A stretch of 64,000 nucleotides of DNA from contig JAFUIN010000028.1 in the NCBI GenBank assembly GCA_017468465.1, positions 1 to 64,000 on the forward strand, written 5' to 3'. The translations under genes were made by a program, and so were the position numbers. Positions 24,137-53,023 of this stretch are shown here, piece by piece. The notes under the pieces were generated by a model, which searched no databases, was not told the origin of the DNA, and was given only the letters and a program-made list of their open reading frames with translations. How positions within the stretch are numbered: position 1 is the first letter of the stretch; the number at the start of each line of letters is the position of its first letter. Source of the stretch: Clostridia bacterium. Its GTDB lineage: Bacteria; Bacillota; Clostridia; UMGS1840.

Positions 24137-24174
24137 AAAGTATCCATCCTTTCGTTTGTAGTTTATTCAATCAA

Positions 24175-24570
24175 GGTTCACCGATTCGGGACAATTTTCT
24201 CATCAGAACGCGGAAAAACTGTTCAGAATTGGGAAACCGAATCAAAGCTCTACTTTGGCAGTGCCCGACGGCGTAGTACTGCGTACGGCTTATGCAACCA
24301 TACAACTCACTCTCTGCCATTTTTTCTGCCTTTCGATGCTGCATGCAATGCGAGGTTCACCGATTCGGGACAATTTTCTCATCAGAACGCGGAAAAACTG
24401 TTCAGAATTGGGAAACCAAATCAAAGCTCTGCTTTGACAGTGCCCGACGGCGTAGTACTGCGTACGGCTTATGCAACCATACAACTCACTCTCTGCCAAT
24501 TTTTCTGCCTTTCGATGCTGCATGCAATGCGAGGTTCACCGATTCGGGACGTTTTTCCGCGTTCTGCTAT
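24175..24570. repeat. 179-bp tandem repeat array (two copies plus partial third)
   Basis: The unit starts GGTTCACCGATTCGGGAC at 24175, again at 24354, and partially at 24533; both intervals are 179 bp and the two full copies differ at only a few positions. The partial third copy runs straight into GTTTTTCCGCGTTCTG, the reverse complement of CAGAACGCGGAAAAAC found near the start of each full copy. The array thus ends in an inverted segment abutting the priA stop. It contains no convincing gene: ORFs in it are uninterrupted only because the unit lacks stops in some frames. It may be a dispersed intergenic element. Confidence 0.85.
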
Positions 24571-47481: not shown

Positions 47482-48279
47482 TTAATCCAATGTGGTATGA
47501 GACTGTTCTGTAATTTCCTTCGCTTTTTTAAGATAATCCATAGAAGGTTCCCGGCGTTTTGTCATATACAAAAGATACTCAATATTACCTTCCGGCCCCT
47601 TAATGGGTGAAAAATCCAAATCCAGAAGAGAGAGTCCTTTTGCCATCATCTGTTCACAAACTCGTACAATGACATCGTAATGTACTTTTTTGTCTTTTAC
47701 AACACCTTTTTTTCCAACAAATTCACGACCTGCTTCAAACTGAGGCTTAATTAAAACCATCAACTCGGCAGAGTCAGACAACAAGTCCACTGCTGTGGAA
47801 AGAGCCGTATTTAATGAAATAAAAGCTACATCGGCAGATAAAAAATCTGCCTTCTCGGGAATTTCTTTTTCGGTTAAATAGCGGGCGTTGGTGCGCTCTA
47901 ACACAACGACCCGTTCATCACTTCTGAGCTTCCAGTCCAACTGACCGTAACCCACATCCACGGCATACACTTTTTTTGCGCCGTTTTGCAGCATACAATC
48001 GGTAAAGCCACCGGTAGAAGCTCCGATATCTACACAAATTTTATCTGTTAAGTCAATGCCAAACACCTTTACACCCTTGTCCAGCTTATAGCCACCGCGG
48101 GACACAAACGGAAGCTCCTCTTTTACGGTAATGGTCTGGTCATCATCGACAGTTTCACCGGCTTTATACGCCTTTTGTCCGTCAACATACACCTGCCCTG
48201 CCATAATGAGTGCCTTTGCTTTTTCCCGTGAGGGTGCAAGATTTCGTTCGGTTAATGCTACATCTAATCGTAATTTCAA
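47482..48279 (-). CDS. tlyA: TlyA-family rRNA methyltransferase
   Basis: 265 aa. The N-terminal S4 RNA-binding domain (RLDVALTERNLAPSREKAKA) precedes the FtsJ-like domain with VCVDIGASTGGFTDCMLQNG (about 85-104). The start codon is TTG, overlapping the dxs stop as TTGA, so translation is coupled. Members are 2'-O methyltransferases of 16S and/or 23S rRNA or haemolysin-like proteins. Confidence 0.9.
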   Translation of the reverse strand: MKLRLDVALTERNLAPSREKAKALIMAGQVYVDGQKAYKAGETVDDDQTITVKEELPFVSRGGYKLDKGVKVFGIDLTDKICVDIGASTGGFTDCMLQNGAKKVYAVDVGYGQLDWKLRSDERVVVLERTNARYLTEKEIPEKADFLSADVAFISLNTALSTAVDLLSDSAELMVLIKPQFEAGREFVGKKGVVKDKKVHYDVIVRVCEQMMAKGLSLLDLDFSPIKGPEGNIEYLLYMTKRREPSMDYLKKAKEITEQSHTTLD

Positions 48280-50132
48280 CGGAAAAATTCCTCCATAATT
48301 TTTTGTGCCACGCTTTCCCCATCCATTCCAAGTAGTTCAAACAGCTCAGCAATCTTCCCTTGTGGAACATAACAATCGGGAACAGAAACGGAATAGAGCG
48401 GAACATCGGTGTAACCGCACAGCGCAGAATGCACACTTCCGTAGCGGGTAGCGTTTTCCATCACTACCCCTCTCTTATTTTTCTTCAGGGATGAGAATAT
48501 CGTATCCATATCCAAGGGTTTTAAGTACCGCAAGTTCACCAGTTCTGCAGACACACCCCATTCTTTCAGACGCTGTACCGCCTTTAATCCCTCGGCAACC
48601 ATAGAACCTTCGCAAAGAATAGAAACATCTTTTCCCTCTACGAGAACCTGGGCTTTGCCTTTTTCAAAGGGCTGTTCCAACCGGCAAATCTCTTCACTTT
48701 CTGCGCCTTTTGGATAACGGATTGCACAGGGACCGTTTCTTTCTTCCACTGCTTCCCGAAGCATTTCTTTCAAATCCTGATAGGTTGCAGGCGAATATAC
48801 TGTCATGTTGGGCATGGAGGTCAGATAGGAAATGTCAAAAATGCCCTGATGCGTCTCACCGTCTTCTCCCACAATTCCGGCACGGTCCACTGCGAATACA
48901 CAATGGAGATTCATACCGCAGATGTCGGTAATCAACTGGTCATAAGCACGCTGCAGAAACGAAGAATACACCGCAAATACCGGCACTGTTCCTGCAATGG
49001 AAAGCCCGGCACAAAGACCGGCAGCATGCCCCTCTGCAATGGCAACATCATAATAACGATCGGGGAATTTTTGCCGAAAAACATTCAACCCGGTCCCGTC
49101 CGGCATTGCTGCGGTAATAGCAACCACACGTTTGTTGGTTTCTGCCATCTCTGTAATGGCGTTACCGAAGGCTTTGGAAAAGTTCATCCCCGAGGGCGCT
49201 GAACGACCTGTTTTTACGTCGAATGCTTTCACTCCGTGAAACAAATCCGGGCGTTCCATTGCCGGAGCATACCCTTTTCCTTTTTTGGTAATGACGTGAA
49301 TCACAATGGGTTTTCCCACATCTTTTAACTGGTTAAATACTTTGCAAAGCCCCTTTAGGTTATGCCCGTCGAATGGTCCGGCATAATAAAAACCAAGCTC
49401 TTCAAAAATATTATCGCCGATAATCATATTGCGAAACGCTGCCTTAAAAGCAGAGATTCCTTTATATAACCCCTTTCCAATCCAAGGAATTTTAGAAAAG
49501 AAGGTAGAAACAGTGCCTTTGGTTCTTAAATAAATGGGGCTGGTTCGCATTTTTGCCAAATGTCTTGCAATGCTGCCCACATTCTCGGAAATGCTCATTT
49601 CATTGTCGTTTAATACAACAATGATGTTGTTTTTGGCTCTGCCGGCATCGTTCATGGCTTCGATTGCCATGCCACCGGTTAATGCACCGTCACCAAGTAC
49701 AGCAACCACATGGGAAGGATTACCCTGCTGCTCCATTCCGCGTTTTAAGCCCAATGCTACTGAAATGGAGTTTGAGCTGTGTCCGGAATGGAACACATCG
49801 AACTCACTTTCGCTGGTTTTTGGAAAGCCGGACAAGCCGTTTAATTTCCGCAAATTAACAAACTCATTTTTTCTACCGGTGAGAATCTTATGCACATAGC
49901 TTTGGTGCCCAACATCAAACACCAGCTTGTCCTCCGGGAAAGAAAAAGCAGAATGAAGTGCAACCGTCAGCTCTACCGCCCCCAAATTAGATGCCAGATG
50001 GCCACCGGTTTCTGAAACACTTTCCACTAAAAATTCGCGGATTTCGGAGCATAGCACTTCCAGCTCTGTCATAGACAGGGCTTTGAAATCTTCATAGGTT
50101 TCGAGCGTTTCGAGTAACTTTTGAGAGTTCAC
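48276..50132 (-). CDS. dxs: 1-deoxy-D-xylulose-5-phosphate synthase
   Basis: 618 aa. SNLGAVELTVALHSAFSFPE, the TPP motif VAVLGDGALTGGMAIEAMND, and the Pyr domain (GLNVFRQKFPDRYYDVAIAE) are present. It starts the MEP isoprenoid pathway; ispA lies upstream in the same orientation. The pair is separated here by oapA and the OLE RNA. Confidence 0.97.
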   Translation of the reverse strand: MNSQKLLETLETYEDFKALSMTELEVLCSEIREFLVESVSETGGHLASNLGAVELTVALHSAFSFPEDKLVFDVGHQSYVHKILTGRKNEFVNLRKLNGLSGFPKTSESEFDVFHSGHSSNSISVALGLKRGMEQQGNPSHVVAVLGDGALTGGMAIEAMNDAGRAKNNIIVVLNDNEMSISENVGSIARHLAKMRTSPIYLRTKGTVSTFFSKIPWIGKGLYKGISAFKAAFRNMIIGDNIFEELGFYYAGPFDGHNLKGLCKVFNQLKDVGKPIVIHVITKKGKGYAPAMERPDLFHGVKAFDVKTGRSAPSGMNFSKAFGNAITEMAETNKRVVAITAAMPDGTGLNVFRQKFPDRYYDVAIAEGHAAGLCAGLSIAGTVPVFAVYSSFLQRAYDQLITDICGMNLHCVFAVDRAGIVGEDGETHQGIFDISYLTSMPNMTVYSPATYQDLKEMLREAVEERNGPCAIRYPKGAESEEICRLEQPFEKGKAQVLVEGKDVSILCEGSMVAEGLKAVQRLKEWGVSAELVNLRYLKPLDMDTIFSSLKKNKRGVVMENATRYGSVHSALCGYTDVPLYSVSVPDCYVPQGKIAELFELLGMDGESVAQKIMEEFFR

Positions 50133-50171: not shown

Positions 50172-50792
50172 TTAATATTTTCTGCGAAAAATCTGCTTAA
50201 TGTTTTTTAGAAAATAAGCAATTTTTCCGACCAGATATACAATTTTTGCCGCGTTTTTCATGGCATATTTTTTTCCAGCTGCTTTGCCTCCTACTGTCAG
50301 CGCCGCAATCAGTGCTGAAAGCAAGCTCAAAAGCAGAAATTGCCCCAACTGAGCATTACCTTTTTCCAACAACTCCTGAAGCATCGCCACCAGGTATACC
50401 CCGATGGTAGCACCGGTAGCACCGCTGATAATGCCGGAAATATCCCCGATAACATCATTAAAAATACTGGTGGCTTTCTCGGCATTTTGCAGTAACGCCA
50501 ATGCTTCCTTGGCACCACTGATTTTTCGTGCCGCCATTGCATTGATGGTTTTTTCATCGGCTGTTGCAATGGCAATCCCCGCCATGTCGGCAATAATCCC
50601 TACCAGAATAATAAAGATCAGGACCAAAAGCGCCGGGAAAAAGTTCAAATTTTTGGATAATATATCTGCAAACATCCCCATAAAGAATGCAATGAAAAAG
50701 GTGATAACAGTAATTTTCACCGCCCAATTCATCGGCTTCTTTTTTGATTTTGATTTCGGGATATCTTCTTTTTCTGATTTATTTGATTCCAT
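50172..50792 (-). CDS. oapA: OLE-associated protein A (OapA)-like membrane protein
   Basis: 206 aa (about 22 kDa). After a Lys/Ser-rich start it has about four membrane segments (WAVKITVITFFIAFFMGMFA, FFPALLVLIFIILVGIIADM, the ISGIISGATGATIGVYLVAM region and FLLLSLLSALIAALTVGG). A DxxxD motif (NDVIGDISG) lies between. Size, topology, DxxxD and place next to a large structured RNA between ispA and dxs match OapA, the membrane partner of OLE RNA in Bacillus halodurans. Some annotations call such proteins CorB-like. The basic C-terminus (KKYAMKNAAK, IFRRKY) could contact RNA. Confidence 0.7.
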   Translation of the reverse strand: MESNKSEKEDIPKSKSKKKPMNWAVKITVITFFIAFFMGMFADILSKNLNFFPALLVLIFIILVGIIADMAGIAIATADEKTINAMAARKISGAKEALALLQNAEKATSIFNDVIGDISGIISGATGATIGVYLVAMLQELLEKGNAQLGQFLLLSLLSALIAALTVGGKAAGKKYAMKNAAKIVYLVGKIAYFLKNIKQIFRRKY

Positions 50793-50878
50793 AATTTTCT
50801 CCTGATGTAATCAAGACGGTTTGTCACAACCGCCGAGCCTGCAATATCATTTTTTTGATATCAAAGTGATTTTCCAAA

Positions 50879-51037
50879 ATTGTAAAATGTGATTGGACGT
50901 TTGTTTATCGTGGAATAAATTTTCTTGCAAGAGTGGGCGAAAAGCGCAGTGAATACTTGGTGTATTCACGAGCAGTTTCACACACTATGGCTGAAAATTT
51001 ATCCACGAGAAAGGAATGGACAATTACATTTTACAAT
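50879..51037. repeat. 159-bp near-palindromic element between OLE RNA and oapA
   Basis: The two ends are inverted copies: ATTGTAAAATGT at 50879-50890 and ACATTTTACAAT at 51026-51037. Pairing continues through CGTGGA(A)TAAATTTTC and TGAATAC/GTATTCA near the centre, giving an imperfect stem of about 75 bp. There is no ORF. It may be a MITE-type insertion or a dedicated RNA domain. Confidence 0.8.
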
Positions 51038-51630
51038 TTATAGTTAACCTGTGGCAGAACCGGAGTAAATTCTGCGGCTTAGGTCGAGTTGGATTTCCCG
51101 AAACACTACTCCTTGTCGCCAATGGAGCGATTTCTCTTGAAAGTGTTTCCAGTAAAGTTGCCTGTTTACTGCACTCGATCGCCACTGAGTCCGCACTGCA
51201 ATCCTCCGGTGCTGTTCTGTCTAGTGGTTTTCCCATACAACATTTGTACTATTTAATCCTGTTTTGCAAACAGAGTTTCAACCGGCGATAACATGTATCG
51301 GAGGGCCCTTCCGATAACATGTCTGATCCGAATCTCCCCTCATGTTCACTCAAGGCAAGCTACTCTGCACACAGCAATCAAACTGAATATCATACCGCAA
51401 TTGCAGGTTTAATCCTGAACCGTAGAAGGCAGCTTGTACCGATTAAGGTACAGAAATTGCCGACCACGAGGACAGGTCTCCACGGAAATAGGGTTTCGGC
51501 CACTATGCCATTAACGGCTGCCCCATAACCTTAACTCCCAGCATCCACCCCGGACTGGGCGTCCGAAGCAAACACAAGGAACTTCATCGATATGCTCTTT
51601 AGCGGATTTTTAGGCCCGCCTTCAATAATA
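51038..51630 (-). ncRNA. ole: OLE RNA (ornate large extremophilic RNA), approximate ends
   Basis: A gene-free stretch of about 600 nt in the minus direction lies upstream of oapA and downstream of ispA and the PAP2-like gene. That is the genomic site where OLE RNA is found in Bacillus and Clostridia, and the length fits (about 610 nt). Several stems are visible: TGTACC/GGTACA (51435-51452), ACATGT-ATCGGA/TCCGATAACATGT (51291-51322) and CTGTTT/AAACAG (51259-51273). No long ORF is likely. The 5' end is set near the GGCGGGCC at about 51620 and the 3' end at the palindromic element; both are estimates. Confidence 0.7.
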
Positions 51631-51670
51631 CATAGTTGACTAGAATACAGTGCCACAGTTTATTGAATCA

Positions 51671-52117
51671 TTATATGCTAAATAAAATACCAAGCAGAAT
51701 TCCGAGAATCGCACCGGCAAACACCTCCGGTTTGGTGTGCCCGATAAGCTCTTTTAGCTCCTGGTCTATATGAAATTCCTGTTTTTCAAACTTTTTGATA
51801 ATGCGATTGAGAATTTTGGCTTGCTCTCCCGCTGCTTTTCTGACACCGGCAGCATCATACATTACAATGATGGCAAGCACAAAGGTGACGGCAAACAAAG
51901 CAGAAGAAAAACCGGTCTGCACTCCTACACAAGTTGCAAGGGTGCAAACAGATGAGGAGTGAGAGCTGGGCATCCCACCGGAACCGATGCAACGGGTCCA
52001 ATCCCATTCTTTGTGCTCCAGGTAATGAAAAGGAATTTTCAAAAGCTGTGCCAATAAACAGGAAACCAGCGTTGCCCCCAATATTGTGTTGGAAAAAATT
52101 TCTCCGAATGGATGCAA
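51671..52117 (-). CDS. Divergent PAP2 family protein (DUF212)
   Basis: 148 aa from a TTG start (AGGAGG 8 nt upstream). GSGGMPSSHSSSVCTLATCV (about 46-65) carries the PAP2-like SxxxH motif; YDAAGVRKAAGEQAKILNRI is the second family block. Four membrane helices. Likely a lipid phosphatase or related enzyme; the exact substrate is unknown. Placed between ispA and the OLE RNA, a known neighbour. Confidence 0.92.
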   Translation of the reverse strand: MHPFGEIFSNTILGATLVSCLLAQLLKIPFHYLEHKEWDWTRCIGSGGMPSSHSSSVCTLATCVGVQTGFSSALFAVTFVLAIIVMYDAAGVRKAAGEQAKILNRIIKKFEKQEFHIDQELKELIGHTKPEVFAGAILGILLGILFSI

Positions 52118-52135: not shown

Positions 52136-53023
52136 TCAATAATTCCGCTCTGCCATGTAAACGGTCAACTTCCTCAAAAAGTCGGCAGAACCGTTCTTTC
52201 CGATTGTCTGTTCCAAGCTGTCTAACATTTCTAACGCTTCGTTTTTATAAGTATCAATCAGCTGTTCGCATTGTGTTATGCCATATTGAGAAACAAACGT
52301 TATTTTCTGATTTTTTTCATCGCTAAATACAGGTTTGCCCAGCGTTTTTTCATCTGCCGTAACATCCAAAACATCGTCTTTTATCTGAAAAATCAGACCG
52401 ATTTTGTCTGCAAATTGTTCCAAAAGCCTAACCGTATCAGAATCTGCACCGCCTAATATGCCGCCGGATACCAGCGCCGCTTTCAAAAGGGCTCCGGTTT
52501 TCCCTCGATACATTTTGCAAAGGCTCTCAAAATCGGAAACGCTTTGCTCCATATCGGACATCTGACCGGCACACATTCCTTTTGCACCGGATGCCTCCCC
52601 AATGCACGCCATTGCCGAAAGTGCACGCTCCAAGGGAAATTCTTTTGCATACTTGAGCATAGTTTCAAAGCTCAGATTCAGCAACGCATCTCCTGCCAGA
52701 ATGGCGCCAAACTCGGAAAACTGTTTGTGGCAAGTGGGTTTCCCCCGTCGCAAATCGTCATTATCCATCGACGGCAAATCATCGTGAACCAACGAATAGG
52801 AATGAATCATTTCCAAAGCCGCAGCATACGGCACGGCTTTTTCTATGTTGCTGTCAAACAGCTCATACACGCTGAGAAGCAGCACCGGACGGAGTCTCTT
52901 GCCACCGTTTAACACGGCATACTGCATAATTTCACGTAAGCTGTCGCTTGTAGAGCAGTTTTTTAATTCATTGAGTAAAAACGTTTCGGTAAGACCTGCT
53001 TTTTTCTTGAGGTTCTCTTTCAT
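52136..53023 (-). CDS. ispA: Polyprenyl synthetase (farnesyl/geranylgeranyl diphosphate synthase)
   Basis: 295 aa. The first aspartate-rich motif is LVHDDLPSMDNDDLRRG (about 79-95), the second IGLIFQIKDDVLDVTADEKT (about 211-230). GGKRLRPVLLLSVYELF is typical. It elongates allylic diphosphates with IPP. It belongs to the xseA-xseB-ispA-dxs cluster. Confidence 0.95.
   Translation of the reverse strand: MKENLKKKAGLTETFLLNELKNCSTSDSLREIMQYAVLNGGKRLRPVLLLSVYELFDSNIEKAVPYAAALEMIHSYSLVHDDLPSMDNDDLRRGKPTCHKQFSEFGAILAGDALLNLSFETMLKYAKEFPLERALSAMACIGEASGAKGMCAGQMSDMEQSVSDFESLCKMYRGKTGALLKAALVSGGILGGADSDTVRLLEQFADKIGLIFQIKDDVLDVTADEKTLGKPVFSDEKNQKITFVSQYGITQCEQLIDTYKNEALEMLDSLEQTIGKNGSADFLRKLTVYMAERNY

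Follow-up and report, generated by a model that had tools for sequence, protein, structure and literature searches.

A full-length OLE RNA beside oapA, followed by a conserved hairpin, in a genus of Clostridia from the ruminant gut

The window, a 64,000-nucleotide stretch of DNA from a MAG-type clostridial assembly (1.51 Mb, ~96% complete), carries an operon-like run of genes in the order yqhY-nusB-xseA-xseB-ispA-divPAP2-[OLE]-oapA-dxs-tlyA-nadK-argR-recN. The gap between divPAP2 (51671-52117) and oapA (50172-50792) measures 878 nt and holds only chance ORFs of at most 91 aa; the other gene neighbours between 46 and 55 kb overlap or lie tens of bases apart. About 640 of the 878 nt are taken up by OLE RNA, which abuts the divPAP2 stop codon, and most of the remainder by a separate hairpin (50877-51039). 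The features of the locus are as follows.

52136..53023, minus strand: ispA (farnesyl diphosphate synthase), NCBIfam NF045485 above cut-off
51671..52117, minus strand: divergent PAP2 family gene (DUF212) upstream of OLE, Pfam PF02681 E 2.9e-50
51035..51672, minus strand: OLE RNA (RF01071), full length, by cmscan over model positions 1-616
51651..51658, minus strand: 5' strand of the P1-like end helix, CUGUGGCA, perfect complement of 51049-51056
51649..51649, minus strand: U of a long-range pair with the A at 51218 (21 A-T, 5 T-A and 0 mismatches in 26 sequences)
51049..51056, minus strand: 3' strand of the P1-like end helix, UGCCACAG, pairing with 51651..51658
50877..51039, minus strand: conserved hairpin of ~163 nt directly 3' of OLE, recognised by covariation, conservation, its single copy and a core found in 35 of 196 genomes of the class
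50172..50792, minus strand: oapA, assigned as the 206-aa OLE-associated membrane protein A from identity to OLE-neighbouring proteins, invariant D69 and D113xxxD117, and predicted fold
50442..50456, minus strand: DxxxD codons (DVIGD, residues 113-117), from an alignment of 20 proteins and sequence analysis
48276..50132, minus strand: dxs, downstream of oapA, NCBIfam TIGR00204 above cut-off

A preliminary description of this DNA had read the structured, gene-free gap as OLE RNA lying between ispA and dxs. The gap and the region were correctly picked out, although the divergent PAP2 gene separates ispA from OLE, so that the two are not direct neighbours, and the RNA itself, while present, starts 42 nt beyond the end then proposed and reaches the divPAP2 stop codon. 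The same gene order, again with divPAP2 between ispA and OLE, is found in Sporanaerobium hydrogeniformans. A promoter scan gave no good sigma-70-type promoter upstream of OLE. Elsewhere in the window, a tandem repeat (24174-24557; unit 179 bp, 2.1 copies, 97% matches) occupies the gap between def-like and priA-like genes.

Within the 64 kb, RF01071 is the sole Rfam match above gathering. The minus-strand search with the OLE covariance model, named beforehand as the test, gave an end-to-end match across all 616 model positions (428.7 bits, E 1.5e-122, against a gathering score of 50) in which 638 nt of the gap match the family; the outcomes named as speaking against OLE, no match to the model or a pseudogene of another element, did not occur. 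The class had thus been correctly recognised from sequence alone, and the remark that ORF-based annotation would miss the RNA is fair, although a routine Rfam scan detects it at once. About 25% of OLE nucleotides are near-invariant, a mark of the class. When the window copy is aligned with 25 other OLE RNAs, it matches their 127 invariant columns at all but one (126 kept); identities are 85-91% inside the genus and 57-66% outside it. A decayed OLE or pseudogene is ruled out by the full-length match together with these columns. The absence of a short hairpin around model positions 424-435 was dropped as a special feature, this stretch being variable or missing in many OLEs.

The ends of the RNA are complementary (CUGUGGCA/UGCCACAG), as are the 5' and 3' ends in most relatives, and a long-range pair absent from Rfam's structure line for OLE joins the 5' GCAGUAUUCUAGUC segment to the 3' CUAGACUG segment; 21 of the aligned RNAs have A-U there, and the five of this genus have U-A. 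On the aligned sequences, this exchange of U-A for A-U is a compensatory change, and it shows, alongside the complementary ends and the retained invariant columns, that the structure of OLE is still under selection in the genus. The k-turn sequences around P5, where OapC binds, AUCGAUGAAG and GGGAGUUAAGG, are conserved at the sequence level; the P12.2/P13 region, the OapB site, is present in the covariance-model alignment with a GGCAAC loop; and the stems assigned to P7 and P8 carry insertions, not deletions.

The adjoining ORF, whose start lies 242 nt downstream of the OLE end, encodes a 206-aa protein with four hydrophobic segments. The preliminary description of a 22-kDa membrane protein with a DxxxD motif was exactly right (22,226 Da, or 22.2 kDa; DVIGD at residues 113-117), and D69, D113 and D117 are invariant in an alignment of 20 proteins. 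Identity is 71-83% within the genus; to the proteins encoded next to OLE in Clostridia further away it is 34-44%. An AlphaFold model of moderate confidence (pLDDT 75.7, pTM 0.63) has CNNM proteins as its top six Foldseek matches in the PDB (7m1t, 7m1u, 7cff, 7cfg), the best being the MtCorB CNNM structures 7m1t/7m1u and CorC 7cff (best E 4.5e-3, probability 1.0), and no Foldseek match reaches E 0.001; the sequence match to PF01595 is weak and below the cut-off. A CNNM match has also been published for the OapA of Halalkalibacterium halodurans (PMC11332333). By its position, DxxxD motif, four hydrophobic segments and CNNM-like predicted fold, the 50172-50792 ORF is identified as OapA, as had been proposed, with sequence, predicted fold and position all in agreement.

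The remaining partners are encoded elsewhere in the host genome. OapB is a 93-aa KOW protein between map and infA (G000:C32:34942-35223) that matches the OapB crystal structure 7k9b with E 2.2e-9, while a YbxF/OapC candidate, an 82-aa L7Ae-type protein between rpoC and rpsL, scores 49 bits to Pfam L7Ae and E 8e-5 to YbxF structures and falls below the NCBIfam equivalog cut-offs. bS21 is present too. No MpfA-type transporter was detected in the genus, in line with published observations on many OLE hosts. Among 41 related genomes sampled, 19 have OLE, all five of the genus included; the 14 control genomes have none. A long CNNM (MpfA-type) protein is encoded in 6 of the 19 genomes with OLE and in 19 of the 22 lacking it (Fisher p 0.0005), which agrees with the published OLE-MpfA anticorrelation. 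The genomes of the genus derive from hindgut samples of ruminants (water deer, water buffalo), and the genus relatives, ruminant-gut Clostridia MAGs, are seemingly uncultured; 'extremophile' is no fitting label here.

We consider it almost certain that 51035-51672 is a full-length OLE RNA and that the region, with oapA, encodes a complete OLE ribonucleoprotein module. A different reading would make the RNA a reduced OLE like variant 1 of TANB77 or variant 2 of RF39, both gut clades, acting without OapB and OapC. The host shares with those clades a gut habitat and a small, host-associated genome, and the OLE scores of the genus (423-429 bits) are the lowest among the 19 OLE genomes of the first sample. 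However, in variants 1 and 2 the P7-P9 or P13 regions are gone, and for the most part so are OapB and OapC (PMC11332333), whereas the window RNA covers the whole model, keeps the P7-P9 regions, has insertions where deletions would be expected of a reduced form and retains the OapB-binding P13 region that is missing in L033, L034, L036 and L038. Because these regions are kept and both OapB and the OapC candidate are present, the RNA is of the full-length type; the reduced-variant reading is largely refuted and we regard it as very improbable. Still less credible is that oapA encodes an ordinary small CNNM transporter unrelated to OLE. The CNNM-like predicted fold would suit such a protein, as would the occurrence in one genome (G013) of an OapA-like protein without detectable OLE, but DxxxD is a published mark of OapA that is absent from CNNM domains (PMC11332333), and a search of the genome collection with oapA only returned 12 loci, with OLE beside the match in all 12. 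The MpfA/CorB/CorC (CNNM-CBS) magnesium transporters resemble OapA in its predicted transmembrane fold and differ from it in that OapA has no CBS or CorC_HlyC domain and carries DxxxD.

The G013 genome (0.9 Mb, 100% complete) encodes a full OapA-like protein with DxxxD (L044 4371-4970, plus strand), whose gene has proS on one side and, on the other, an L20-leader-like match that precedes infC/rpmI/rplT; neither OLE nor MpfA was detected in it. According to the literature, OapA without OLE perhaps never occurs; G013 is a possible case, the alternative being a very divergent OLE.

The window RNA is therefore best described as an ordinary, well-preserved and typical full-length representative of a known class. 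With the OLE/OapA systems of H. halodurans and Clostridium acetobutylicum, it shares the full-length structure, the conserved nucleotides, an oapA directly downstream, an isoprenoid/DNA-repair operon and a genome with OapB, an OapC candidate and bS21. It differs from them in its host, a ruminant-gut genus and no extremophile, in having divPAP2 between ispA and OLE, in the U-A that replaces A-U in the long-range pair, and in a 242-nt spacer with a conserved hairpin. By extension from work on H. halodurans, the RNA would be transcribed together with its neighbours, fold and dimerise (dimer: PMC12286853), OapA dimers at its palindromic sites would bring it to the membrane, and together with OapB, OapC (at a k-turn of OLE: PMC9723947) and bS21 they would form a stress-responsive particle; OLE has been linked to stress response and Mg2+ tolerance (PMC12265935), and its partners and biology are treated in PMC12265935, PMC11332333, PMC9723947 and PMC12286853. 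OapA, with its CNNM-like four helices, probably acts on divalent metal ions (Mg2+), controlled by OLE RNA; we give this putative metal-transport mechanism an even chance of being correct. In sequence and predicted structure, the window contains nothing that contradicts the published particle model.

Within the 242-nt spacer, positions 50877-51039 form one long imperfect hairpin that begins a few nucleotides past the OLE end helix, with 46-nt arms that are 78% complementary and an imperfect stem of ~60 bp. Homologous hairpins occupy the same place in the other four members of the genus, as one (G002), two (G001, G003) or three (G004) tandem copies (window 50877-51039, minus strand; L029 4447-4933; L030 4156-4571; L031 1090-1406; L018 2140-2300), and in G004 a single 5' arm stands opposite three 3' arms, each 76-78% complementary to it. 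OLE-oapA spacers in the genus measure 242-840 nt, against 10-128 nt in most other relatives, the latter range referring to loci with OLE and oapA on the locus plus strand. In G003, the hairpin repeats are separated from oapA by an additional hydrophobic ORF of ~116 aa (L030 4629-4978, plus strand) that matches nothing in Pfam or NCBIfam.

The consensus hairpin of the five species contains 62 pairs, 19 of which show compensatory double changes, compared with 9.4 +/- 1.8 in shuffles and at most 4 in slid registers, a count that arm-to-arm conversion in DNA palindromes can mimic and may have inflated. The first hairpin copies are 74-83% identical to that of the window and their cores 80-90%, whereas dxs, tlyA, oapA and divPAP2 reach only 29-53% identity at their fourfold-degenerate sites; the spacer outside the hairpin is largely unalignable across the genus. 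Conservation beyond the fourfold sites, together with covariation, argues that the hairpin is probably under selection. Rfam matched the spacer to no known RNA family, giving chance miRNA matches only. The hairpin is not followed by a U-run, and a minus-strand scan found no terminator at it. This conserved second hairpin right behind OLE is, in this genus, the new element of the locus; we found no prior description of it.

Its origin can be approached through a covariance model built on the 78-nt core, which has one real copy in the host genome and matches in 35 of 196 genomes of class Clostridia, reaching more than 20 copies per genome, often at contig ends. In G007 (L089-L098) and G036 (L099-L104), the matches belong to elements of ~300 nt that are bounded by imperfect terminal repeats (TAGCC...GGCTA) and terminate in TA, which we take to be the signature of MITEs mobilised by transposases of the IS630/Tc1-mariner type; dispersed palindromic elements sharing the core also occur at L063 and L067, and while terminal repeats vary between genomes, the internal core is shared. 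A search of open-licence papers turned up no account of such MITEs in Clostridia. In the genus, the element has two fixed positions, one behind OLE and a second, in G002-G004, behind a tpiA-like gene (L105-L108; the tpiA reading rests on the gene's C-terminal residues), and this second copy was not detected in the window's own genome. A match at G004:C50 to the element's central palindrome was set aside as chance, the core being absent. The window hairpin resembles TA-flanked bacterial MITEs in being a palindrome of ~160 nt whose core matches the dispersed G007/G036 copies, and differs from them in its fixed place across the genus and its conservation; terminal inverted repeats with a TA target duplication were not seen in it, and multiple copies were not found in the host genome, so that a genome-wide mobile repeat of the host was rejected. 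It is most likely a domesticated mobile-element remnant.

What the hairpin does is a matter for more tentative suggestions. The genus transcript would carry an extra long hairpin just after OLE, whose most likely use would be to fix where OLE ends or to keep its expression apart from that of oapA, a role that we put forward as possible, at somewhat less than even chance. We would go no further for the fuller proposal that a mobile palindromic element has been domesticated as a 3' extension of OLE, in some species with as many as three alternative 3' arms opposite one 5' arm, and that it controls 3' end formation or the OLE:OapA ratio. In a more specific form, equally tentative, the hairpin would be a processing or termination signal (e.g. 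an RNase III-type site) that defines the OLE 3' end and uncouples an abundant RNA from oapA; its position and stem just past the end helix, the long spacers of the genus and the 3' processing of H. halodurans OLE (PMC11332333) favour this, yet the missing U-run and terminator, and the fact that other OLE hosts manage without such a hairpin, weigh against it. That it is instead a functionless relic of a transposed MITE, as homology of the core to dispersed, often identical copies in Clostridia and the terminal repeats and TA ends of the G007 and G036 elements might suggest, seems unlikely, given that it has been kept in place in five species at an identity well above that of fourfold sites and with an excess of covarying pairs, subject to the caveat on conversion.

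OLE RNA is rare and belongs to the largest structured RNAs of bacteria that have no known biochemical function. Its full-length occurrence, alongside its partner genes, in a gut bacterium of 1.5 Mb where MpfA was not detected adds to the published pattern of mutual replacement between OLE/OapA and MpfA. Beyond the known class, the locus and its relatives add the hairpin behind OLE and a possible OapA without OLE in G013, and the conserved hairpin offers a tangible starting point for asking what may determine the OLE 3' end or the balance between the RNA and OapA.
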